From assembly GCA_902627935.1 (NCBI GenBank), contig CACOLA010000001.1, positions 124,001-188,000 on the forward strand: a stretch of 64,000 nt of DNA. Direction: 5' to 3'. Position 1 is the first letter of the stretch, and each line of letters opens with the position of its first letter. Under the pieces are notes generated by a model. The model had not been told where the DNA came from. It saw only the letters and a program-made list of their open reading frames with translations, and did not search any database. This DNA is from an uncultured Pelagibacteraceae bacterium (GTDB lineage: Bacteria > Pseudomonadota > Alphaproteobacteria > Pelagibacterales > Pelagibacteraceae). Below, one piece after another: positions 4,810-19,279 of the stretch. Made by a program: the position numbers and the translations under genes.

Positions 4810-5553
4810 TCAACTCTTTTTTTTTAAGTAATTTAAGTGATGAAAAACAATCGCAGCACTATTAGATATATTTAAACTTTCTATTTTTTTGTTGATGTCA
4901 ATCTTGACTAAAAAATCTGCATATTTTGATGTGTGCTTATGCATACCTGACCCCTCTGAACCAAATAAAAGTAATATATTTCCTTCCCACTCAATATTTG
5001 TAAAACTTTTATCACCATTTCCATCAAAACCATAAATCCAAAAGTTTTTATCTTTTAAGTTTTTAAGCGTTGAATTAATATTAGATACTTCAAATATATT
5101 TACATATTCCATTGCACCACTTGCAGCTTTATACATGAGTTTGCTTTCACTAGGAAAATGCCTTTCTTTAATTACTATTCCATCAATATTAAATGATGCA
5201 GCACTTCTTATTAAGGATCCAATATTTCTCGGATCCGATACTCCATCTAAACACGCTAAAGTAATTTGATCTTTTTCTTTAATGAATTTCTTTAGAGAAA
5301 GTTTTTCTAAATGTTCAATTTCAGCAACATAACCTTGGTGTAGTAAATTTTCTTTTGTGCAATATTTGTCTAGTTCTTTTTTGGTTTTAAAATAAACCTT
5401 TATATCTCGAAGCAAATTTTTTTGTGGGTTTTTTCTATGAATATTTTTTTTACTTTCCTCGGTTAAAAATACCCTCAATACCCTTCTATTGGTATTTTTC
5501 AACGCTTCGATTACAGCATGTTGGCCAACAATAAAAAAAGACGAATTATTCAT
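4810..5553 (-). CDS. rlmB: 23S rRNA 2'-O-methyltransferase RlmB (TrmH/SpoU family)
   Basis: A 247-residue SPOUT methyltransferase that by family would methylate G2251 ribose in the 23S rRNA P loop, using S-adenosylmethionine. The N-terminal substrate-binding domain starts with GQHAVIEAL at 10-18. The three SpoU motifs are present: LDGVSDPRNIGSLIRSA at 102-118, LFGSEGSGM at 196-204 and LNISNSAAI at 227-235; together they form the knotted cofactor site. The length matches the family. It is transcribed away from the tRNA-Tyr/tuf operon and towards tRNA-Thr. Assignment to RlmB rather than another TrmH paralogue rests on the N-terminal domain and length. Confidence 0.88.
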   Translation of the reverse strand: MNNSSFFIVGQHAVIEALKNTNRRVLRVFLTEESKKNIHRKNPQKNLLRDIKVYFKTKKELDKYCTKENLLHQGYVAEIEHLEKLSLKKFIKEKDQITLACLDGVSDPRNIGSLIRSAASFNIDGIVIKERHFPSESKLMYKAASGAMEYVNIFEVSNINSTLKNLKDKNFWIYGFDGNGDKSFTNIEWEGNILLLFGSEGSGMHKHTSKYADFLVKIDINKKIESLNISNSAAIVFHHLNYLKKKS

Positions 5554-5606
5554 AAATTTTAATAACTTTTACATAATTTTACTATATTTTCTTAACATTT
5601 CTCGTA

Positions 5607-5634
5607 TTGCAATTACACAAACAAAGTATATAAA
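5607..5634 (+). promoter_or_regulatory. Probable stable-RNA promoter for tRNA-Tyr-tRNA-Gly-tuf
   Basis: TTGCAA at 5607-5612 and TATAAA at 5629-5634 are 16 bases apart. The -10 box is followed directly by ACGCGTG, a GC-rich discriminator that stands out in this AT-rich genome and is typical of promoters under stringent control for tRNA and ribosomal genes. Transcription would start near 5641, about 44 bases before tRNA-Tyr. Predicted from sequence only. Confidence 0.6.
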
Positions 5635-5664
5635 ACGCGTGTTGTTTAAAGCTTTTATTGAACA

Positions 5665-5680
5665 AGGGGACACTTCCCCT
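5665..5680 (+). other. Short hairpin just upstream of tRNA-Tyr
   Basis: AGGGGA (5665-5670) pairs with TCCCCT (5675-5680) around a four-base CACT loop. It ends four bases before tRNA-Tyr and has no U-tract, so it is not a terminator; a role in 5' processing or leader stability is possible. Confidence 0.5.
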
Positions 5681-5684
5681 AAAA

Positions 5685-5770
5685 GGAGGGGTTCCAGAGC
5701 GGTCAAATGGGGCGGGCTGTAAACCCGTTGACTTCGGTCTTCGAAAGTTCGAATCTTTCCCCCTCCACCA
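5685..5770 (+). tRNA. tRNA-Tyr (GUA)
   Basis: An 86-base class II tRNA with a long variable arm and encoded CCA. The acceptor stem pairs GGAGGGG with CCCCTCC, the anticodon loop reads CTGTAAA with anticodon GTA, and the T loop TTCGAAT is intact. It is first in a plus-strand transcript with tRNA-Gly and tuf. Confidence 0.95.
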
Positions 5771-5816
5771 TTCAATGAATCTTTAAGTAATGCTGGAGTG
5801 TAACTCTTGGGGTTGT

Positions 5817-5890
5817 GCGGGTGTAGTTCAATGGTAGAACGCTAGCCTTCCAAGCTGGATGTAAGGGTTCGATTCCCTTTACCCGCTCCA
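5817..5890 (+). tRNA. tRNA-Gly (UCC)
   Basis: A 74-base cloverleaf with encoded CCA. The acceptor stem pairs GCGGGTG with TACCCGC, and the anticodon stem CTAGC/GCTGG encloses CTTCCAA with anticodon TCC. It lies 46 bases after tRNA-Tyr and 43 before tuf, an order (Tyr-Gly-tuf-Trp) also known from other proteobacteria with a tufB-type locus. Confidence 0.95.
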
Positions 5891-5933
5891 AGAAATAAAA
5901 TTATAAAAAAAAAGAATGTGAGGAAAATAAGTA

Positions 5934-7124
5934 ATGTCTAAAGAAAAATTTGTAAGAAATAAACCGCATTGTAACATTGGAACAATCGGACACGTCGACC
6001 ATGGTAAAACCACTTTAACAGCAGCGATAACTAAAGTATTGTCTGAAACAGGTGGAGCACAAGCTGTAGCTTATGATCAAATAGATAAAGCTCCAGAAGA
6101 AAAAGAAAGAGGAATAACAATCTCTACTGCACACGTAGAGTATGAAACTGAAAAAAGACATTACGCGCACGTAGATTGTCCAGGACATGCTGACTATGTA
6201 AAAAATATGATTACTGGTGCAGCTCAAATGGACGGAGCAATTTTAGTTGTTAATGCTGCAGATGGTCCAATGCCTCAAACAAGAGAACATATTCTTTTAG
6301 CAAGGCAAGTTGGTGTACCTGCAATTTGTGTGTATTTAAACAAAGTTGATCAGGTTGATGATAAAGAGATGATAGATCTTGTTGAGGAAGAAATTAGAGA
6401 GCTGTTAACGTCATATAAATTTCCTGGCGACAAAACTCCAATAGCAAAAGGTTCTGCCTTAGCAGCCGTAGAAGGAAGAGATGAGGAGATTGGAAAAAAA
6501 TCAATATTAGAATTAATGAAAAATGTTGATGAGTTTATTCCACAGCCTGACAGACCTAAAGATAAAGATTTTTTGATGCCTGTTGAAGATGTTTTTTCAA
6601 TTTCTGGAAGAGGTACAGTAGCAACAGGAAGGGTAGAGTCAGGTATACTTAAAACTGGTGATGAACTTGAAATCGTTGGAATAAGGGAAACAAAGAAATC
6701 TGTGTGTACTGGAGTAGAAATGTTTAGAAAGCTATTAGATTCTGGTGAAGCAGGTGATAACGTTGGAGTACTTTTGAGAGGTGTTGAAAGAACTGATATT
6801 GAAAGAGGACAAGTTCTTTGTAAACCTGGATCTGTCACACCACACACTAAATTTGAAGCTCAAGCTTATGTGTTGAAAAAAGAGGAGGGCGGAAGACATA
6901 CACCTTTCTTCACAAAGTATAGACCACAGTTTTACTTTAGAACAACTGATGTAACTGGAGAAGTAGAGTTACCATCTGGAACAGAAATGGTTATGCCTGG
7001 GGACGATGCTAAATTTACTGTTAAGTTAATTACACCGATTGCGATGTCAGAAAAGTTAAATTTTGCTATCCGTGAAGGTGGAAGAACTGTTGGAGCTGGA
7101 GTAGTAACTAAGATTATAGAGTAA
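5934..7124 (+). CDS. tuf: Elongation factor Tu
   Basis: EF-Tu, 396 residues, is the GTPase that carries aminoacyl-tRNA to the ribosomal A site. The P-loop GHVDHGKT is at 19-26, followed by DCPGHADY (G3) and NKVD (G4), then the two beta-barrel domains ending in [18 protein letters not shown] Shine-Dalgarno-like stretch sits about a dozen bases upstream of the ATG. It is embedded between tRNA-Gly and tRNA-Trp (tufB-type position). The str cluster at 18438-21364 has no second copy, so this may be the only tuf gene, at least in this window. Codon use and GC content are higher than average, as expected for a very highly expressed gene. Confidence 0.98.
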
Positions 7125-7132
7125 GCTCTATA
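7115..7132 (+). other. Hairpin spanning the tuf stop codon, next to tRNA-Trp
   Basis: TATAGAG (7115-7121) pairs perfectly with CTCTATA (7126-7132), leaving TAAG as the loop, which contains the tuf stop codon. The stem ends one base before tRNA-Trp. No U-tract follows, so it is more likely a processing or 3'-end protecting structure than a terminator. Confidence 0.5.
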
Positions 7133-7133
7133 T

Positions 7134-7209
7134 AGGAGTGTAGCTCAATTGGTAGAGCGCCGGTCTCCAAAACCGGAGGCTGAGGGTTCGAGTCCCTCCG
7201 CTCCTGCCA
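7134..7209 (+). tRNA. tRNA-Trp (CCA)
   Basis: A 76-base cloverleaf with encoded CCA. The acceptor stem pairs AGGAGTG with CGCTCCT, and the anticodon stem CCGGT/ACCGG encloses CTCCAAA with anticodon CCA. It lies between tuf and secE, the usual proteobacterial position. Confidence 0.95.
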
Positions 7210-7228
7210 ATTAGAGAAATATAAAATT

Positions 7229-7420
7229 ATGAAAAACCCTATTAAATTTATTCAAGAAGTTAAGCAGGAGGCCTTTAAAGTATCCTGGCCAACTAGTAAA
7301 GAAACTGTTCAAGGTGCTTTAATGGTTCTTGCAATGGCGGTTGTAATGTCTTTATTTTTTTTGCTTTTGGACCAAGTTTTTAAATTCTTTTTAGAGATGT
7401 TATTAAAGGTAAGTATATAA
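7229..7420 (+). CDS. secE: Preprotein translocase subunit SecE
   Basis: A 63-residue short-form SecE. The amphipathic N-terminal part has the family signature FIQEVKQEAFKVSWPTSKE (about 8-26), followed by a single transmembrane helix at about 31-56. It clamps SecY in the inner membrane. The short one-helix form is standard outside enterobacteria. The stop codon overlaps the nusG start by one base, so the two are probably translationally coupled. Confidence 0.93.
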   Translation: MKNPIKFIQEVKQEAFKVSWPTSKETVQGALMVLAMAVVMSLFFLLLDQVFKFFLEMLLKVSI

Positions 7421-7950
7421 TGAAAAACTGGTATATAGTTCAATCGCACTCAAGTTTTGAGAATAAAGTTGCAGGTTTAATAAAAGAGGAAGCTGAAAAA
7501 GCACAAATTTCTGATAAATTTGAAGAAATTGTGGTACCAACTCATGATGTTACAGAGGTTAAAAGAGGAAAAAGAATTCAAAGAAAAAAAAAGTATTTCC
7601 CTGGATATGTTTTAATTAAAAGTGAAATGGACAATAGTATTTATCATATGATTAAAAATATAAAGAGAGTTAGTGGGTTCTTGGGCACGAAAGGAATGCC
7701 TGTTCCTGTATCTGATAGAGAAATAGAAAAGATTTTAGGTCAAATAAAAGATGGTGTGGCCCAGCCAAAATCTGGTATAGAATATAGCGTTGGTGAAAAA
7801 GTACAAGTAGTTGATGGACCTTTTGCATCCTTCAGTGGAATGGTTGAAGGTATAGATGAAGAAAAATCTAGACTTAAGGTTTCAGTTTCTATATTTGGTC
7901 GTCCAACACCAGTTGAATTAGAATATAATCAAGTGGAGAAAGTAAGTTAA
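7420..7950 (+). CDS. nusG: Transcription termination/antitermination factor NusG
   Basis: A 176-residue NusG. The N-terminal NGN domain begins [17 protein letters not shown] and includes the [10 protein letters not shown] segment near 63-72 that contacts RNA polymerase. The C-terminal KOW domain (about 125-176) has the [18 protein letters not shown] loop. It couples RNA polymerase to Rho or the ribosome. It shares one-base TAATG junctions with secE before it and rplK after it. Confidence 0.96.
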
Positions 7951-8381
7951 TGGCTGCAAAAAAAGAAATTAGTGGATTTATAAAATTACAAATTAAAGGT
8001 GGACAAGCCAACCCAGCACCACCTGTAGGACCTGCATTGGGTCAGCGTGGAGTTAATATAATGGAATTTTGTAAAGCATTTAATGATAAAACTAAATCTT
8101 TAGCTGGAAAACCTGTTCCAGTAGAGATAACAGTATATAAAGATAAAAAATTTGATTTTAAGATTAAATCTCCACCAGCCTCTTTTTTTATAAGAGAAGC
8201 TGCAAAATTGAAAAGTGGTTCTAAAGAGCCAGGAAGAAATATTGTAGCTTCAATAACAAAAAAACAAGCTGAGGATATAGCTAAACAAAAAATGAGTGAT
8301 CTTAATGCAATAGATTTAGAACAGGCTGTTAAGATAATTGCAGGTTCTGCAAGATCAATGGGAATAGAGGTAAAAGATTAA
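7950..8381 (+). CDS. rplK: 50S ribosomal protein L11
   Basis: L11, 143 residues, forms the GTPase-associated centre base with 23S rRNA helices 43-44. The N-terminal domain holds [18 protein letters not shown] with the conserved prolines, and the C-terminal RNA-binding domain contains the [16 protein letters not shown] region. It overlaps nusG and rplA by one base each, indicating a tightly coupled operon. Confidence 0.97.
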
Positions 8382-9070
8382 TGCCATCAAAAAGATTTAA
8401 AAAACTTCCAAATAAAACATCTGAATTACAGTCAGATGTTATAGAGAAACTATTACCTTTAATAAAAAAAAATTGCACTACAAAATTTGATGAGTCTGTG
8501 GATTTAAATTTTCAAATTAACAATAAACAAAAAAAAAATGAAATTAATATAAGGACAGTTGTAAATTTGCCTGGAGGGAATGGAAAAAAAATTAAAGTAG
8601 CTGTTGTCTGTGAAGATACCAAGGCCTCAGAGGCTAAAGATGCAGGAGCTGATGTTGTAGGGAGCGATGATTTTATTGATAAAATAAAGAATGGTGAAAT
8701 GGACTTTGAAAAACTTATTTGTACTCCATCCATGATGGTAAAACTATCAAAGCTTGGAAAAGTTTTAGGTCCAAAAGGTTTAATGCCAAATCCTAAATTG
8801 GGGTCGGTAACTGATGACCTCAAAAAAGCAGTGACAGATGCTAAATCAGGTCAAGCTGAAATTAGAAATGATAAGGATGGAAATATTGGTGTAAGCATTG
8901 GAAAAAAATCATTCAATGATGATCAATTAATTAAAAATTATAACGCGGTATTAGATACCTTAGATAAAGAAAAATCTAATAATACTTTAAAAGGAGATTT
9001 AGTAAAATCAGCTTTTATAACATCTACAATGGGCGTTTCTTATAAAATCAAATTAGGTAAAAATATTTAA
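8381..9070 (+). CDS. rplA: 50S ribosomal protein L1
   Basis: L1, 229 residues, binds the mobile L1 stalk of 23S rRNA and in many bacteria represses its own L11-L1 mRNA. The central signature KLGKVLGPKGLMPNPKLG and the C-terminal KSAFITSTMGVS segment are intact. It follows rplK with a one-base overlap. The length agrees with other bacteria. Confidence 0.97.
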   Translation: MPSKRFKKLPNKTSELQSDVIEKLLPLIKKNCTTKFDESVDLNFQINNKQKKNEINIRTVVNLPGGNGKKIKVAVVCEDTKASEAKDAGADVVGSDDFIDKIKNGEMDFEKLICTPSMMVKLSKLGKVLGPKGLMPNPKLGSVTDDLKKAVTDAKSGQAEIRNDKDGNIGVSIGKKSFNDDQLIKNYNAVLDTLDKEKSNNTLKGDLVKSAFITSTMGVSYKIKLGKNI

Positions 9071-9074
9071 TATC

Positions 9075-9584
9075 ATGATGAACAAAGAACAAAAAAAAAA
9101 TTATATTAGTGAGATGACGTCTCAATTTGAGAACAGCAAAGCCGTTATGGTAACACATTATCAGGGTTTAACTATGCCTCAATTAGATGAATTGAGATCA
9201 AAAATGAGAGAGCATGGTATAGTATTTAAGATAACGAAAAACAGGATTACAAAATTAGCCTTAGAGAAAACTAAATGTAAAGAGCTTTCGAATTTATTCT
9301 CTGGTCCAACTGCTGTAGCGTTTGGGGAAGATGCAATTATGTCAGCAAGAATTCTGTCAAAATTTGCCAAAGAAAATCAAAATTTAAAGCTCATAGGTGG
9401 AATCATGGATAATGAGGTTTTGGATCAAGCCGGGGTTCAAAATGTTGCCAATTTACCAACTTTAGATGAGGCTAGAGCTAATATTGTAGGTATTTTAAAC
9501 GCTTCAGCGTCAAAAATAGTGAGTATTTTACTTGCACACTCGGAAAAAATGGGTAGTTTGACCCCAGAAAATTCTGAAAAATAA
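9075..9584 (+). CDS. rplJ: 50S ribosomal protein L10
   Basis: L10, 169 residues, anchors L7/L12 dimers to the ribosome. The N-terminal rRNA-binding domain shows VTHYQGLTMPQLDELRSKMR, and the C-terminal helix that holds L7/L12 follows after about residue 140. Two adjacent ATG codons at 9075 and 9078 could both serve as start. It lies four bases after rplA. Confidence 0.96.
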   Translation: MMNKEQKKNYISEMTSQFENSKAVMVTHYQGLTMPQLDELRSKMREHGIVFKITKNRITKLALEKTKCKELSNLFSGPTAVAFGEDAIMSARILSKFAKENQNLKLIGGIMDNEVLDQAGVQNVANLPTLDEARANIVGILNASASKIVSILLAHSEKMGSLTPENSEK

Positions 9585-9601
9585 CCTAAAGAGTAGACAT
9601 T

Positions 9602-9967
9602 ATGCCTGACCTAAATAAAATTATAGAAGATTTATCAAGTTTGACTGTAGCGGAAGCAGCAGATCTTTCAAAGCAATTAGAGGAAAAATGGGGAGTATCT
9701 CCAATGACTGCAGCGGCTCCCGCAGCAGCAGCAGCAGGGGAAGCAGCAGCTGAAAAGGATGATTTCTCGATCATGCTTGTATCAGCTGGTGATAAAAAAA
9801 TTAACGTCATAAAAGAAGTTAGAGCAGCAACATCGCTTGGACTTAAAGAAGCCAAAGATTTAGTTGAGGGTGCGCCAAAAGAAGTTAAAGCTGGTGTTCC
9901 TAAAAAAGAAGCTGAAGAAATTAAGGCTAAACTAGAGGCAGCTGGCGCAAAAGTAGAGCTTAAATAA
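9602..9967 (+). CDS. rplL: 50S ribosomal protein L7/L12
   Basis: L7/L12, 121 residues, is the flexible stalk protein that recruits translation GTPases. The N-terminal dimerisation domain is followed by an alanine-rich hinge at about 38-52, encoded largely by GCA/GCT repeats that produce a local GC peak, and a C-terminal domain containing [15 protein letters not shown]. It is the last gene before the rplL-rpoB gap with its hairpin. Confidence 0.97.
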
Positions 9968-9987
9968 ATAATTAGAAAGAATTCATA

Positions 9988-10011
9988 AACTGATTAATTC
10001 GTTGATCAGTT
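9988..10011 (+). other. UUCG-capped hairpin between rplL and rpoB
   Basis: AACTGATTAA (9988-9997) pairs with TTGATCAGTT (10002-10011) over ten base pairs, one of them G-U, closed by a TTCG tetraloop. No U-tract follows and rpoB starts ten bases later, so full termination is unlikely. By analogy with the enterobacterial rplL-rpoB gap, it may be an attenuator or an RNase III cleavage site that sets the ratio of L7/L12 to RNA polymerase. Confidence 0.65.
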
Positions 10012-10021
10012 AAAAATATAA

Positions 10022-13000
10022 ATGCAAATATCTTTTACTGAAAAAAAGAATATTAGAAAGAGTTTTGGTAAACTAAAAGAAAGTCTATCAATACCAAATC
10101 TTATTGAAGTTCAAAAAAATTCCTACGATGAGTTAACAGATTTTAAAAAAGAAGCAGAAGTTGCAAAAGGTTTTGATAGAGTATTTAAAAGTATTTTTCC
10201 TATTGAAGACCTAAATGATAAAGCAACTTTAGAATATGTATCTTACAGGCTGGAAAAACCGAAATTTGATGTTGAAGAGTGTATCGCTAGGGGTCTTACA
10301 TATTCATCTGCTTTAAAATGTACTTTAAGGTTAGTTGTTTATGAAATTGATCAAGAGAATAATACAAAAGATATTTTATCAGCTAAGGAGCAAGAAGTTT
10401 ATATGGGTGAAGTTCCAATGATGACAAACAGTGGTACCTTTATTACTAATGGTGTTCAAAGAGTAGTAGTTAATCAAATGCATCGAAGCCCAGGAGTATT
10501 TTTTGATCATGACAAAGGTAAAACGCATGCTAGTGGAAAATTATTGTTTAATTGTAGAGTTATTCCGAATAGAGGATCTTGGTTAGATTTCGAATATGAT
10601 GTAAAAGATTTTCTATATTTTAAAATTGATAGAAAGAAAAAAATTTTAGCATCAACTCTTTTATTAGCTTTAGGTTTTACTAAATCAGAAATTGTAAATG
10701 AGTTTTATGAAAAAGAAAAATTTATATATGACTCTAAAACTGAGAAATGGAAAACAAATTTTAATCCTGAAAACTATAAAGCTAAAAACTTTTCTGAGGA
10801 AGTGGTTGATGCAAAATCAGGTAAAGTTGTTATTAATTTGGGAGAAAAAATTAACTTTTTAAACGCAAAAAAACTATCAAATGATGGTTTAAAAGAAATT
10901 CTAGTATCAAAAGAGTCTCTATATGGAAAATTTTTACATAAAGATATTAAAGTTTCTGATGAAGAGGGAGGAACTTTTAAAATTGGTACTGAATTAAACG
11001 AAACTATTATAAAACAAATTTTAGATGCAAATATTCATTCTTTAGATATCTCAGTCACAAATTCAATAACTAAAGGACCTTACATATTAACAACTATTCT
11101 AAATGACAAAAATAATTCAAAAGATGAAGCAATAACTGAAATTTATAAGATGTTAAGACCTGGAGAGCCACCTACTATTGAAATTGCCACACAAATTTTT
11201 AACAACTTATTTTTTAGTTCTGATAGATACGATCTTTCAGATGTTGGAAGAGTAAAGATGAATTCAAGATTAAATCTTGAGTGTTCCGATAAAATCACAA
11301 TTTTAAGAAATGACGATATAATTGCAATTGTACATAAAATGTTAGATTTAAGAGATGGAAAAGATGATGTTGATGATATTGATCATCTTGGAAATAGACG
11401 AGTTAGATCAGTTGGTGAACTTGTTGAAAATCAAGCAAGAATAGGTGTTTATAGAATGGAGAGGGCAATCAAGGAGAAAATGACTACTCTTGATGTTGAG
11501 TCAGCTATGCCTCAGGATTTGATTAACGCAAAACCCTTAACAGTGTCATTGAAGGATTTTTTTGCAAGCTCACAACTTTCTCAATTTATGGATCAAACAA
11601 ACCCATTATCTGAAATAACTCATAAAAGAAGAGTTTCAGCACTTGGGCCTGGTGGATTAACTCGAGAAAGAGCTGGATTTGAAGTTCGAGATGTCCATCC
11701 AACGCATTATGGAAGAATATGTCCAATAGAAACTCCTGAGGGTCCAAATATTGGATTAATAAATAGCTTATCAACTTATGCAAAAATTAATAAATATGGA
11801 TTTATTGAAAGTCCTTATAAGAGAGTAAAGGATGGAGTGGTTCAAGATAAAGTTGAATATCTTTCTGCAATGGAGGAGACAAAATTTACAATAGCTCAGG
11901 CTAATACTAAAATTGATAAAAATGGAAAAATTGTAGAAGAACTTGTGTCATGTAGACAAAATTTAAATTTTCTTTTATCAAAACCAGAAACTATTGATTA
12001 TATTGATGTATCACCTAAACAACTTGTATCAGTAGCTGCCTCTTTAATTCCCTTTTTAGAAAACGATGATGCTAATAGAGCATTAATGGGATCTAACATG
12101 ATGAGGCAAGCAGTACCTCTATTGAAACCAGAATCACCTCTTGTGGGAACTGGTATTGAAAGTGATGTTGCTTTAGATTCAGGTGTAACAATTGTAGCCA
12201 GAAGAGAGGGTGTTGTTGATAGAATTGATGGTAAAAGAATTGTAGTAAAAGTTACTGAGGAGACTGATTTTACTAAATCAAGTGTTGATATTTATAATTT
12301 ACAAAAATTTAAAAGATCAAATCAAAACACATGTATCAATCAAAGACCCTTGGTAAGAGTCGGTGATAAAGTTAAAACTGGTGATATTATTGCTGATGGA
12401 CCATCAACAAGGTTAGGTGAGTTAGCATTAGGAAAAAATGTTACAGTCGCATTTATGCCATGGCAAGGATATAATTTTGAGGATTCAATTTTGATTTCTG
12501 AGAGGTGCGTTACTGATGATGTTTTTACGTCTGTTCATATTGTAGAATATGAAATAATGGCTAGAGATACAAAATTAGGAGAAGAGGAAATCACACGAGA
12601 TATTCCTAATGTTAATGAAGAAGCTTTAAAAAACTTAGATGAGTCGGGAATTGTTTATATCGGTGCCGAAGTGAATGCAGGAGATATATTAGTTGGAAAA
12701 GTTACTCCAAAAGGGGACTCAGCTTCAGGTCCAGAGGAAAAACTGTTGAGATCAATATTTGGTGAAAAAGCAATAGATGTAACTGATACATCTTTAAGAA
12801 TGTCAAGGGGAAGCAGTGGAACAGTTGTTGATGTGAAGGTATTCAACAGACATGGAATTGAAAAAGACGAAAGATCTATTACTATTGAACGTGCAGAAAT
12901 TGATCAAGTTCAACAAGATAAAATTGTAGAAGAGGAAATTTTAGAGAGAAGTATTAAACAAAGAGTAGCTCAAATTTTATCTGGAGCCTCATTAACAAAA

Positions 13001-14107
13001 AAAATTAAAGACCTTGATGTAGGTACAAAACTTGATTTCGATAAAATTAACACATTGTCGATCAATGATGTTTTTAAGATTAGTGTTGGCAAAAGTAATG
13101 ATGAAGCAACATTAAATCAATTAAAAGATCAATATAATAAAGCTAAACAAGATATTACAGAAAGATTTGAGGATAAAGTTTTAAAAATTAGAAGTGGCGA
13201 TGATCTATTACCAAGTGTCATGAAAATGGTGAAAGTTTTTGTAGCAATAAAAAGAAGGTTGAGACCAGGAGATAAAATGTCGGGTAGGCATGGAAATAAA
13301 GGTGTTGTAAGTAAAATTGTTCCTGTTGAGGACATGCCTTACAGGGAAGACGGAAGACCTGTTGATATAGTTTTAAACCCACTTGGAGTCCCAAGTCGAA
13401 TGAACGTTGGTCAAATTTTAGAAACACATTTAGGCTGGGCTTGCAAAGAATTTGGCGAGGAAGTAAAAAAACTAGTTAATGAAAATAATAAAAGAATTGA
13501 AAAAACCGAAAAAATTTCAAAATTTTTACAATCAGTTTATGGTGAAGAAATTTTTAATGAGAAAGTAGAAAAATTAAGCAAAACAGAATTTAGAGATTTG
13601 TGTGAAAATTTACAAAATGGTGTAGCAATTTCAACCCCTGTATTTGATGGTGCAAAAGAAAAAGATGTCACAAAAATGCTTGAGCTTGCAAAATTACCTG
13701 GTTCTGGACAAACATATTTATGGGATGGAAGAACAGGTGAGAAGTTTGATAGACCTGTAACTGTAGGAATTATTTATATGCTTAAGCTACATCACTTAGT
13801 AGAGGATAAAATTCATGCAAGATCAACTGGGCCTTACAGTTTAGTAACTCAACAACCATTAGGTGGTAAAGCTCAATTAGGAGGTCAAAGATTTGGAGAA
13901 ATGGAAGTGTGGGCTTTAGAAGCCTATGGAGCTTCTTATACTTTACAAGAAATTTTAACTGTAAAATCAGATGATGTTGCTGGACGTGTAAAAGTCTACG
14001 AAACAATAGTTAAAGGAGAAGAAAATTTTGAATCTGGAATACCAGAATCATTTAATGTACTTGTCAAAGAAATAAAATCGCTGGCATTAAACGTGGAGCT
14101 TAATTAA
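10022..14107 (+). CDS. rpoB: DNA-directed RNA polymerase subunit beta
   Basis: The beta subunit, 1361 residues, forms one side of the RNA polymerase active-site cleft. The rifampicin-binding region around 515-560 reads [19 protein letters not shown] then [10 protein letters not shown], the wild-type sensitive pattern. The C-terminal half holds [15 protein letters not shown] and the [20 protein letters not shown] segment. Length is as expected for proteobacteria. It is preceded by the hairpin-bearing gap after rplL and lies two bases from rpoC. Confidence 0.98.
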
Positions 14108-14109
14108 AA

Positions 14110-17100
14110 ATGAAAAAAGAATTAACAGATCTTTTTAAAAATTCAGAGATATCAGAGGCACAAAATTTTAATAGTATAAAAATATCTTTGGCTAGTCCTG
14201 AAAAAATAAAATCTTGGACATATGGAGAAATAAAAAAACCAGAGACTATCAACTATAGAACTTTTAGACCTGAGAAAGATGGTTTATTTTGTGCAAGAAT
14301 ATTTGGGCCAATTAAAGATTATGAATGTCTATGTGGAAAATACAAAAGAATGAAATTTAGAGGCATAATCTGTGAAAAATGTGGTGTTGAAGTAACAAAA
14401 TCAAATGTACGTAGAGAAAGAATGGGTCACATTAATCTTGCAACCCCGGTTGCTCACATTTGGTTCTTGAAATCTTTACCAAGTAGAATTGCCTTGGCCG
14501 TAGACATGAAGCTTAAAGAAATTGAGAGAGTTTTATATTTTGAAAACTTTATTGTTATAGAGCCAGGATTAACAGGATTAAAAAAGAATCAACTTCTTAA
14601 TGAAGAGGAATTAGCAAAATATCAGGATGAATTTGGTGAGGAGGCATTTACAGCAGGCATAGGTGCAGAAGCTGTGCTGGAAATGTTAAAAAATTTAGAC
14701 TTAGAGTCAGAAAGAAAGTACTTAGTCAACTACATCAAAGAAACTAAGTCTAAAGTAAATGAGGAAAGAGCAATAAAAAGATTAAAACTAGTTGAGTCAT
14801 TTATTGAAACTGGGCAAAAACCAGAGTGGATGATAATGACAGTAGTACCTGTGATACCACCAGAATTAAGACCATTAGTACCACTAGATGGGGGTAGATT
14901 TGCCACTTCAGATTTAAATGATTTGTATAGAAGAGTAATAAATAGAAACAATCGTCTGAAAAGATTAATGGATCTTAAGGCACCAGATATCATAGTCAGA
15001 AATGAGAAAAGAATGCTCCAAGAATCAGTAGACGCTCTTTTTGACAATGGTAGACGAGGAAGAGTAATCACTGGAACAGGGAAACGTCCTCTAAAATCTT
15101 TGGCAGAAATGCTGAAAGGTAAACAAGGGAGGTTTAGACAAAATTTATTAGGTAAGCGAGTTGATTATTCAGGAAGATCGGTAATTGTTGTAGGTCCTGA
15201 TTTAAAACTTCATGAATGTGGTCTACCAAAAAAAATGGCATTAGAATTATTTAAACCTTTTTTATATGCTAGACTAAATAAACTTGGTTTAGCCTCTACT
15301 ATTAAGCAAGCGAAAAAATTGGTTGAAAAGGAAACAAATGCTGTATGGGATGCTCTTGAGTTGATCGTAAGGGAACATCCTGTATTACTAAATAGAGCAC
15401 CAACCTTACACAGACTAGGTGTTCAAGCATTTGAACCAAAATTGATAGAAGGTGATGCTATTGAGTTACACCCATTAACTTGTGCAGCATTTAATGCAGA
15501 CTTCGACGGAGATCAAATGGCTGTTCATGTACCTTTAAGTTTGGAGGCACAATTAGAAGCCAGAATATTAATGCTTTCTACAAATAACATTTTATCACCT
15601 TCAAACGGAAAACCAATTATTGTTCCAAGTCAGGATATGATTTTAGGTATATATTATTTATCACAAGATCCATTAACAGATAAGCCCTCAGGATATTTCG
15701 TTGACGCAGATCAAATCGAATTTGCTTTATCATCTGGTCAGATAAAAGTTCATAGCACAATTATATCAAGATTTGAGACTGTTGATAAAGATGGTAATAA
15801 AAAATATGAAAAATATACCTCTACAGCAGGAAGATTTTTATTAGCTAATTTATTACCAAAAAATAAAGATATAAAGTTTTCTTTAATTGACAGATTATTA
15901 CCAAAAAAAGTTGTTTCAGAAATTATAGATATTGTATTTAGATTTTGTGGTCAAAAAACTACAGTAATTTTTTGTGATAAATTAAAAGATTTAGGATTTA
16001 AACATGCATTTAAAGCAGGTATTTCTTTTGGTAAGGATGATCTAGTTATACCAGAGAGCAAAACTCAACTTATAGATGATACAAAAAAATTAATTACTGA
16101 TTACGAAACTCAGTATGCTGAAGGCCTTATAACAAGGGGTGAAAAGTATAATAAAGTGGTTGATGCATGGTCAAAATGTACTGATCGAGTAGCAGGTGAA
16201 ATGATGAAAGGAATTTCAGCAACTGAAAAAACTTCTGAGGGATTAAAAATAAATTCTGTATTTATGATGGCTGATAGCGGAGCCAGAGGTTCTGCAGCAC
16301 AAATGAAACAATTGGCAGGAATGAGAGGATTAATAGCTAAACCTTCTGGAGAAATAATTGAAAGTCCAATAATATCAAATTTTAAAGAAGGTTTAACTGC
16401 GCTTGAGTATTTTAACTCTACTCATGGTGCTAGAAAAGGCTTGGCTGATACAGCACTGAAAACTGCAAGCTCAGGTTATTTGACTAGAAGATTATGTGAT
16501 GTTGCTCAAGATTTAACTATTACTAAAAATAAATGTGAGAAGCCAGGATTTATTGAGTTATCTGAAATTTTAGAGGGTGGTAATGTTGTTGTAAGTTTAT
16601 CTGAGAGAGCTTTAGGTAGAGTTACTGCTGGTGAGGTAAAAAATCCTATTACTGGAGAAGTAATAATAAAAAAATCCTCAATGATTGATGAAGCAGCTTG
16701 TGATCAGATTGATGCTGCAGGAATTAAATCACTTAAAGTTTTTTCAGTTATGACATGTAGCTCTAAAGAGGGTGTTTGTGCTACTTGCTATGGCCGTGAT
16801 TTATCAAGAGGAAAAATGGTTCATGTTGGTGAAGCTATAGGAATGATATCTGCACAATCAATTGGTGAGCCCGGAACACAGTTAACAATGAGAACATTCC
16901 ACGTTGGTGGTACAGCATCAGTAAAACAAGACTCACAAATAGTGACTAAAAACGAAGGGACTTTAAAAATTATAAATTCAAATATATTAGAAGACTCAAA
17001 AAAGAATTTGATAGTTATGGGAAGAAATACTCAATTATCAATTGAGGATGATAATAATGTTCAAGTTGCAGTATACAAAGTTGCTTATGGATCAAGATTA

Positions 17101-18273
17101 TTTTTTAAAAATGGTGATAAAGTTAAAGCTAACACTAAAATTTGTGAATGGGATCCTTACACAACACCAGTTATTGCTGAAAAAAGTGGTGTAGCAAGTT
17201 ACGTAGATTTAATTGATGGTATGTCAATTCAAGAAACGATTGATGATGCAACAGGAATTTCGTCTAAATCTGTAATTGATTGGAGATCTCAGTCAAAAAG
17301 TACAGATTTGAAACCAAGAATTACTTTAAGAGATGAAAGAGGCAATGTAATTAAAAAAGCTGATGATAATGAGGCAAGATATTATTTAGTACCTGACTCA
17401 ATTCTTTCTGTGAAAGATGGACAAAAAGTATCTGCTGGAGATGTTATAGCTAGACTTCCAAAAGAAACTACTAAGACTAAAGATATTACAGGTGGCCTAC
17501 CAAGAGTTGCTGAGTTATTTGAAGCTAGAAAAGCAAAAGATAGTGCTATAATAGCTGAAAATGATGGACAGGTTGTTTTTGGAAAAGAAGTAAGAGGAAA
17601 ACAGAGAGTTTCAATAGTTCCTGAAGACGGATCAGAGGCCTCTAATTACTTAATCCCTAAAGGAAAACATATCAACTTCAATCAAGGTGAGAAAATTAAA
17701 AAAGGAGAATATTTATTGGATGGCCAACCTCTACCTCATGATATTTTAAGAATTATGGGTATAAAAGATTTGACAGAGTATTTTGTAAATCAAGTTCAAG
17801 AAGTTTACAGATTACAGGGTGTAATAATTAATGATAAACATATCGAAACAATTTTGAGACAGATGCTTAAAAAAGTTGAAGTGAAAAATTCAGGAGACTC
17901 GTCTTATTTACCTGGTGAAATTATAGATAGAATTAAATTTGATAATAATAATGAGAAGTTAAAAGCTGATGGAAAAATACCTGCGACTGGAGAGAGAGTA
18001 TTAATGGGTATTACTAAAGCATCTTTACAAACTGAGTCATTTATTTCAGCTGCTTCATTTCAAGAAACAACAAGAGTTCTTACTGATGCTGCTATTAAAG
18101 GGAAAATTGATCCATTAAACGGACTAAAAGAAAATGTAATAGTGGGCAGGTTAGTACCTGCTGGAACAGGAAATATTAAGAATAAATGGAATAAAAAAGC
18201 TCTTGAGGATGATAATAAATTTTTGTCTGATCAAGAAAAGATAGAGGCTTCAGAAACCCCCGTAAATTCATAA
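14110..18273 (+). CDS. rpoC: DNA-directed RNA polymerase subunit beta'
   Basis: The beta' subunit, 1387 residues. The catalytic NADFDGDQ motif places the magnesium-binding aspartates at 464, 466 and 468. The N-terminal zinc site has four cysteines at 73, 75, 88 and 91. A second zinc site is formed around [16 protein letters not shown]. The trigger loop and C-terminal jaw are complete. It is the last gene of the secE-rpoC transcript; a 164-base gap with a predicted promoter and leader separates it from rpsL. Confidence 0.98.
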
Positions 18274-18302
18274 AAATCTGATAAATTCAGTCTAGTTTTA
18301 GT

Positions 18303-18330
18303 TTGACAAAATCTTATTAATAAGTATTTT
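18303..18330 (+). promoter_or_regulatory. Probable promoter for the rpsL (str-S10) operon
   Basis: A perfect -35 hexamer TTGACA at 18303-18308 and TATTTT at 18325-18330 are 16 bases apart, in the only sizeable gap between secE and rpoA. It would drive the long ribosomal protein cluster. The predicted leader structure begins immediately after the -10 box, so either the true start is close to it or part of the structure is not transcribed from here. Confidence 0.6.
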
Positions 18331-18403
18331 GGCGGTGTTTTTGGTTGGAATGTAGTGTTAATCACAGACACTAAACGCTGCCACTAATAACCTGTCAGTT
18401 ATT
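18331..18403 (+). ncRNA. Putative structured 5' leader RNA of rpsL
   Basis: GGCGGTGTT (18331-18339) pairs with AACGCTGCC (18374-18382), nine pairs with two G-U wobbles. It stacks on an inner stem, TAGTGTT (18353-18359) with GACACTA (18367-18373), with a 13-base one-sided bulge. A second hairpin, AATAAC/GTTATT, lies at 18386-18403. The local GC content is above background. It could bind a ribosomal protein such as S12 or S7 to repress the operon. No U-tract follows, so it is not an intrinsic terminator. No known riboswitch was recognised. Confidence 0.4.
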
Positions 18404-18437
18404 TCATTCAAAAACTAATAATATAAAAATTATAATT

Positions 18438-18809
18438 ATGCCGACTATTAATCAGTTGTTAAAAAATAAGAGAACTAAACAAACTAAAAGGAATAAAGTT
18501 CCTGCTCTGCAAAAGCAACCACTCAAAAGAGGTGTTTGTGTCAAAGTTTATACAACCACCCCAAAAAAACCTAATTCAGCGTTGAGAAAAGTTGCTAGAG
18601 TAAGATTGTCTAATGGTTTTGAGGTTACTGCATACATACCTGGAGAAGGTCATAATCTACAAGAACACTCAGTTGTCCTTATAAGAGGAGGACGTGTTAA
18701 AGATTTACCTGGAGTACGATATCATATTCTTAGAGGTAATCTAGATACACAAGGTGTTGCGAACAGAAAAAAAAGAAGATCTTTATACGGAACTAAAAAA
18801 GGTAAATAA
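18438..18809 (+). CDS. rpsL: 30S ribosomal protein S12
   Basis: S12, 123 residues, lies near the decoding centre. The [18 protein letters not shown] segment carries K43/K44 and [11 protein letters not shown] carries K88, the wild-type residues at streptomycin-resistance positions. First gene of the str cluster, with a one-base overlap into rpsG. Confidence 0.98.
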
Positions 18810-19279
18810 TGTCTAGAAAAAAAACCCAACCCAAAAAAAATGTTATTCCTGATCCTAAATTTAATTCAACGATAATTCCTAAGTTAATTAATAATATAAT
18901 GTATGATGGAAAAAGAGGTGTTGCAGCAAAAATAGTTTATGATGCTATAGAGAAAATCAAAACAAAATCGAAAGATGAACCAATTAATATTTTTAATGAA
19001 GCAATAAATAACATTAAACCTACTGTTGAAGTTAGATCACGAAGAGTAGGAGGAGCAACCTATCAGGTACCAGTAGAAGTAAAAAGTAAAAGAGCTCAAG
19101 CACTGGCAATAAGATGGTTAGTAGACTCTGCTCGAAAAAGAAAAGATAAACATATGTCAGATAAAATATTTAATGAACTTTATGATGCATATGAAAAAAA
19201 AGGTGCTGCAGTAAAAAAAAGAGAGGATGTGCATAAAATGGCAGAATCGAATAAAGCCTTTGCACATTTTAGGTGGTAA
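18809..19279 (+). CDS. rpsG: 30S ribosomal protein S7
   Basis: S7, 156 residues, nucleates assembly of the 30S head. VEVRSRRVGGATYQVPVEV and the following ALAIRWLVDSARKR are the family signature. It overlaps rpsL by one base and lies six bases before fusA. In enterobacteria S7 represses the str operon; whether it does so here is unknown. Confidence 0.97.
   Translation: MSRKKTQPKKNVIPDPKFNSTIIPKLINNIMYDGKRGVAAKIVYDAIEKIKTKSKDEPINIFNEAINNIKPTVEVRSRRVGGATYQVPVEVKSKRAQALAIRWLVDSARKRKDKHMSDKIFNELYDAYEKKGAAVKKREDVHKMAESNKAFAHFRW

Follow-up and report, generated by a model that had tools for sequence, protein, structure and literature searches.

The ribosomal stalk and RNA polymerase are needed at very different levels, yet one operon encodes both, so how do bacteria keep the two outputs apart? 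L7/L12 is the one ribosomal protein required in several copies per ribosome. The question is posed here by the rplL-rpoB junction of a genome from SAR11 (Pelagibacterales), 1.04 Mb in size and 87% complete, whose closest named relatives are Pelagibacteraceae. In a 64,000-nucleotide stretch of this genome (the window), the operon reads nusG-rplK-rplA-rplJ-rplL-rpoB-rpoC, with gene names read from the translations. Its intergenic gaps are -1, -1, 4, and 17 nt from nusG to rplL and 2 nt between rpoB and rpoC, with 54 nt between rplL and rpoB. An earlier note, made from the sequence alone, placed in this gap a long ten-pair hairpin with a very stable UUCG loop and no U-tract, at the point where other bacteria attenuate or cleave the transcript to give more L7/L12 than polymerase, and suggested looking for RNase III-like cleavage ends. 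The features of the junction are as follows.

9602 to 9967, plus strand: rplL (ribosomal protein L7/L12), the upstream gene; ORF of 121 aa, name read from the translation
9968 to 10021, plus strand: rplL-rpoB intergenic gap, 54 nt, from the sequence
9974 to 9979, plus strand: purine-rich AGAAAG 5' of the stem, from alignments
9988 to 9997, plus strand: 5' arm of the hairpin, AACUGAUUAA
9998 to 10001, plus strand: UUCG loop, closed by A-U and unconserved, from the sequence
10002 to 10011, plus strand: 3' arm of the hairpin, UUGAUCAGUU
10022 to 14107, plus strand: rpoB (RNA polymerase beta), the downstream gene; ORF of 1,361 aa, name read from the translation

Sequences compared

The rplL protein was used as the query to collect loci in which a relative of rpoB comes next downstream. 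Such loci were sampled from the genus, family, and order of the source genome and from contigs of named genomes; the wider rplL matches were fetched in part, with 59 places chosen to cover other genera and the second family. The order-level search covered 149 SAR11 genomes with completeness of 90% or more and contamination of 5% or less; no rplL match came from 19 of them, probably because of assembly gaps. The resulting 246 sequences comprise 192 SAR11 loci (window included), two duplicates of the window, one locus (L066) with no rpoB within reach, and 51 loci from other bacteria. The SAR11 loci contain 178 distinct rplL-rpoB gaps, from 35 to 69 nt in length, of which 177 were used and one, containing an N, was dropped. 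Nearly all of the 51 non-SAR11 loci are named as Alphaproteobacteria; the set is uneven, with many Bradyrhizobium, and includes one locus named as Deltaproteobacteria and some named as Proteobacteria only. What we call the close set consists of 117 distinct gaps from the window's own genus and from near named loci, the genus assignment of the latter being unchecked.

The hairpin and its surroundings in the window

The hairpin occupies positions 9988 to 10011, as described in the earlier note, and has ten pairs, including one U-G, and a minimum free energy of -9.0 kcal/mol. It follows the rplL stop codon (TAA, 9965 to 9967) and precedes the rpoB ATG at 10022, with no visible Shine-Dalgarno-like run between the stem and the ATG. 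Directly 3' of the hairpin comes AAAAAUAU, with only 2 T residues in the next 8 nt, and a terminator scan returned no entry within the gap. Taken singly, the hairpin is modestly unusual, and it is the cross-species comparison that raises it far above chance. Of 200 shuffled sequences, 10 folded as well in a 76-nt context and 2 in a 41-nt context. When genes are taken mechanically as ATG ORFs over 264 kb of this contig, 6 of the 29 co-directional gaps of 30 to 130 nt contain a stem of at least 10 pairs. The longest two of the stems in such gaps are terminator-like, with T-rich tails. The ten-pair stem of the note is real. As to the loop, it is the form C(UUCG)G that makes an extra-stable tetraloop, whereas the window's UUCG is closed by an A-U pair, so that the special stability of cUUCGg does not apply here.

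A pattern search for a second copy in the source genome returned two places, the junction itself and a match with a 2-nt loop on contig 3; the backwards control of this search gave one forward and one reverse match. A covariance model run with E values up to 10, with 150 of the 2,773 first-look candidates scored, found the junction alone. Rfam covariance models, applied to positions 5000 to 19000 of the window with E values up to 1, gave three tRNAs and the rpsL motif as their sole matches and left the hairpin unmatched. The rpsL match is the SAR11 rpsL RNA motif (RF01823, 90.2 bits) at 18329 to 18418, between rpoC and rpsL and 8.3 kb downstream of the hairpin. A gene whose translation reads as tuf lies within 5685 to 7209, ahead of nusG and between tRNA-Tyr/tRNA-Gly and tRNA-Trp.

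According to PMC10931766, the L10(L12)4 complex of Escherichia coli autoregulates rplJL, and rpoBC is under separate autogenous control; PMC5371410 and PMC5179076 provide further operon context. The Rfam search of positions 5000 to 19000 found no L10 leader before rplJ, and the rplA-rplJ gap (9071 to 9074) is only 4 nt long, so the usual rplJL autoregulation seems to be absent or different in the window's genome. A promoter scan of positions 6000 to 19000 listed no sigma-70-like plus-strand promoter in the rplL-rpoB gap; a minus-strand promoter-like match at 10044 to 10015 overlaps the end of the gap, in a scan that was at chance overall (53 matches found versus 52.3 expected).

Conservation and covariation in SAR11

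Poor conservation of the stem would have spoken against the earlier note, and the stem proved well conserved: the fold z-score is below -2 in 150 of the 177 distinct SAR11 gaps, with a mean of -3.18. Control stretches of 54 nt at the same loci gave +0.60 when taken from the end of rplL and +0.04 when taken from the start of rpoB. Between genera, the letters of the stem are almost wholly replaced, and a stem persists. It is not retained everywhere in SAR11. The exceptions are one genus (labeled g2; L187 to L193), in which all seven loci stay above a z of -2, with values between -1.96 and +0.99, and two single loci of other genera with a weak fold (L220 and L231). In g2, the stem has been replaced, weakened, or lost, some loci having GGTAC...GTACC, which makes this genus a case of natural loss.

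Covariation was assessed in an alignment, made from sequence only, of 65 gaps of the close set with less than 86% identity, from which one poorly aligned gap (L138) was excluded. Paired cells account for 90.5% of this alignment versus 77.1% after shuffling. Two-sided changes, for which the earlier note had suggested looking, occur at all 12 modeled pairs (shuffled mean, 8.4; 12 reached by 1 of 500 shuffles) and in 102 cells versus 32.2. The covariation score is 0.440, compared with 0.200 (standard deviation [SD], 0.014) for shuffled alignments and 0.036 to 0.145 for structures slid along the alignment. The compensatory changes go beyond both the shuffled and the slid controls, the mark of a conserved structured RNA. 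From the same alignment, RNAalifold recovered ten of the 12 pairs unaided, with a compensatory change in each of the ten. In the window's stem, the two pairs next to the loop are missing from its consensus and are also the least kept, being unpaired in 11 and 16 of the 65 gaps. A FastTree phylogeny built from the coding DNA on the flanks requires a minimum of 49 changes from one Watson-Crick pair type to another over the 12 pairs, a figure that has no shuffled control.

The mismatches that are tolerated point to the strand on which the structure acts. At the nine core pairs, G-U or U-G occurs 70 times and A-C or C-A 7 times, versus 81.5 and 28.2 after column shuffling; A-C is thus depleted four-fold, and none of the shuffles had fewer than 20. 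A stem in sense-strand RNA allows G-U but not A-C, a pattern not expected of a DNA palindrome or of an antisense RNA, so the structure acts in the sense-strand RNA. The sequence comparison thus shows that the hairpin is under selection for pairing and not for particular letters, and that its site of action is the sense RNA.

Variable parts of the element

The loop is among the parts that vary. UUCG is found in just 1 of the 177 distinct SAR11 gaps; U-rich loops are the commonest, with TTTT seen 27 times, and loop length is 3 to 7 nt (10th to 90th percentile). The UUCG of the window is incidental, and the earlier emphasis on a very stable loop is not supported. The absence of a U-tract, on the other hand, extends well beyond the window: at least 5 T residues in the 8 nt after the stem are seen in 8 gaps and are absent in 169 of the 177. 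The median stem length is 11 pairs.

In many gaps of the close set, AGGA/AAGGA or AGAAAG lies 5' of the stem; distant genera are mostly without them. Ignoring kinship, AGAAAG is present in 42 of 174 5' flanks versus 3.3 expected from shuffles; AGGA, present in 57 of the 174 versus 55.8 in shuffles, shows no excess. At the other end of the gap, a stop codon stands in frame immediately 5' of the rpoB ATG (10019 to 10021 in the window) in 97 of the 177 SAR11 gaps; among the 280 genes called mechanically on the window's own contig, 35 have such a stop, again with kinship ignored.

Position of the structure relative to rplL and rpoB

The median distance from the rplL stop to the stem is 18 nt in the close set (n = 117) and 18.5 nt in the second SAR11 family (n = 14), whereas the median distance from the stem to the rpoB start is 9 nt in the former and 19.5 nt in the latter. 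In 36 mutually dissimilar SAR11 gaps, the distances to the stop and to the start vary equally (SD, 6.0 and 5.8), so the case for anchoring at rplL comes from the second SAR11 family and from the other Alphaproteobacteria.

Over the 70 nt that follow rplL, the mean z of the 51 non-SAR11 loci is -3.08, and 36 of them fall below -2. For the 43 of these loci with gaps of at least 140 nt, the mean z is -2.71 in the first 60 nt and -0.08 in the last 60 nt; the end of rplL is mildly structured (-0.97), and the start of rpoB gives +0.60. The middle of the 29 gaps of at least 200 nt is mildly structured as well (-1.30), and the rplJ-rplL gap, used as a control at the 49 of 51 loci where it is at least 30 nt long, gives +0.28. 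An uninterrupted stem is found at 43 of the 51 loci, and just one of the 43 (L067) has a T-rich tail. The rule used considers stems without interruption, and inspection by eye showed at least one U-tract that it overlooks, after a stem with a bulge (L105). In the sampled Alphaproteobacteria other than SAR11, strong structure thus adjoins the 3' end of rplL and not the start of rpoB. Since the structure lies in the first 60 nt and not in the last 60 nt, the element belongs to the rplL 3' end. Structure near the rplL stop is common in the sampled loci, and SAR11 has a small form of it.

Possible functions of the hairpin

From its position and conservation, we infer a boundary role for the hairpin at the rplL/rpoBC junction. 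Our preferred reading, to which we give a probability of roughly 0.45, is that it lets rplL message exceed rpoBC message, likeliest by serving as a barrier at the 3' end. The AU-rich RNA downstream would be cut by endonucleases, or transcripts would be incomplete, either of which would leave rplKAJL RNA with an end at or near the hairpin; the stem might then slow 3'-to-5' exonucleases, so that rplL RNA would outlive rpoBC RNA. The anchoring of the stem, its indifference to sequence, and the missing U-tract all fit such a barrier. Among 11 SAR11 genomes, RNase E is encoded in 10, RNase III (PF14622) in all 11, and RNase J in all 11; RNase E was not found in the window's own assembly, which is 87% complete. 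RNWUU, which we take to be an RNase E-type motif, occurs in the 36 dissimilar gaps 90 times upstream of the stem versus 52.8 expected and 12 times downstream versus 15.5. This upstream bias is the opposite of what a 3' barrier would lead one to expect, but the reverse-complement control is enriched alike (79 versus 52.1).

A similar output could be reached during transcription. The hairpin may aid pausing or partial termination, possibly together with NusA, NusG, or Rho, and so lower the number of polymerases that go on into rpoBC; it would then be what is left of an attenuator, the stem alone. A pause or a partial, possibly Rho-assisted, release of polymerase would give the same result as a 3' barrier. 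We hold this to be possible but doubtful. It has in its favor the E. coli hairpin with a U-tract at the same junction and the presence of Rho in the window's own genome. In the close set, about 9 nt separate the stem from the ATG, close to the distance at which hairpin-stabilized pauses occur. That distance is not conserved, however, being about 20 nt in the second family, as would not be expected if the start codon fixed the place of the pause, and the U-tract is missing from 169 of the 177 gaps, whereas the two terminator-like stems on the window's contig do have T-rich tails. Somewhat more doubtful still is translational control of rpoB, with the stem limiting or shaping ribosome loading or else looping out the spacer and so bringing a distant Shine-Dalgarno sequence (AGGA, AAGGA, or AGAAAG) nearer to the AUG. 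A Shine-Dalgarno-like run, defined as 4 or more letters of AAGGAGG, is indeed rare at the usual place, being found at a spacing of 3 to 14 in 2 of 117 rpoB genes of the close set versus 48 of 280 genes of the contig, and frequent before the stem, at 27 to 50, in 55 of 117 versus at most 54 of 280 (30 at 27 to 38 and 24 at 39 to 50). Yet the spacing with the stem looped out is inconstant (n = 56; median, 10; range, -1 to 17), and its SD of 5.7 exceeds the 4.0 of the linear spacing. A fixed effective spacing was rejected on this ground, and translational control is accordingly weaker than the boundary reading. AGGA is also no commoner in the 5' flank than in shuffles, the stem persists in other genera of the family, where an upstream Shine-Dalgarno sequence accompanies it in just 2 of 46 cases, and the non-SAR11 structure sits at rplL and not at rpoB.

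Typical RNase III substrates span roughly two helical turns, or about 20 pairs. The window's single stem of 10 pairs, like the SAR11 median, is well short of this, and the gap of about 54 nt has no second arm that would extend it. Stem length therefore makes an RNase III processing site, of the kind known at the E. coli junction, improbable, even though the enzyme is encoded in all 11 SAR11 genomes and a review (PMC2777011) lists the rplL-rpoB region of E. coli among its substrates; the RNase III-like cleavage for which the earlier note suggested looking is unlikely on these anatomical grounds. Least probable by far is a DNA-level palindrome (an operator) or a hairpin that acts in an antisense RNA. 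Any inverted repeat is also a palindrome in DNA, and a minus-strand promoter-like match overlaps the end of the gap, though such matches are at chance level. Against this candidate, the letters change freely between genera while pairing persists, loop length varies, and the depleted pair is A-C, whose counterpart on the opposite strand is G-U. The G-U and A-C counts contradict this candidate. The hairpin does not qualify as a canonical intrinsic terminator, and it is not a typical RNase III site either. Attenuation or processing that yields more L7/L12 than polymerase, as the earlier note had it, remains plausible and, judged from the sequence comparisons, would be the favored general explanation, with the boundary element acting as a 3' barrier as its likeliest form.

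More tentatively, and with odds below even, a sequence-independent boundary hairpin at the rplL 3' end may set the ratio of L7/L12 to polymerase without intrinsic termination throughout the Alphaproteobacteria, SAR11 having shrunk it to a bare stem of about 25 nt in genomes that rank with the most streamlined of any known. At this junction, a gap of tens of nucleotides with a covarying stem is retained in SAR11, in an operon where, in the window, none of the gaps from nusG to rplL or between rpoB and rpoC exceeds 17 nt. How so streamlined a cell, with no recognizable terminator here, sets the ratio thus becomes a question open to direct testing, whether in SAR11 cultures or in any other alphaproteobacterium.

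Comparison with known systems

The surveys of SAR11 RNA motifs by Meyer et al. in 2009 (PMC2704228) and Stav et al. in 2019 (PMC6429828) ranked gaps by length and GC content. The motifs described there are, like the hairpin, SAR11 cis-elements, and the rpsL motif comes from the first of them. Neither main text mentions rplL or rpoB, and the literature within reach of our search, which lay outside most subscription papers, yielded no description of a SAR11 or alphaproteobacterial rplL-rpoB hairpin. This suggests that surveys favoring long, GC-rich gaps miss short conserved RNA elements.

In the other Alphaproteobacteria, the first hairpin after rplL is, as in SAR11, mostly without a U-tract by the rule of our script; unlike in SAR11, the stems are mostly GC-rich and the gaps mostly 80 to 500 nt long. 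We infer the homology of these hairpins with the SAR11 stem from position, not from sequence.

The rplL-rpoB junction of E. coli reportedly contains an attenuator and an RNase III region, described by Barry, Squires and Squires in 1980. In E. coli K-12, used here as a yardstick, three hairpins are predicted in the first 70 nt after rplL, the last of which, GGCTGGTGAC...GTCACCAGCC, begins about 40 nt after rplL and is followed by TTTTT. Common to E. coli and SAR11 are the junction itself and strong hairpins lying no more than about 70 nt from the rplL stop. They differ in that E. coli has an 11-pair stem with TTTTT in a 319-nt gap, whereas the SAR11 window has an AU-rich stem in a gap of 54 nt; of two features of an attenuator of the E. 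coli kind, the position between rplL and rpoB is present and the U-tract straight after the stem is not.
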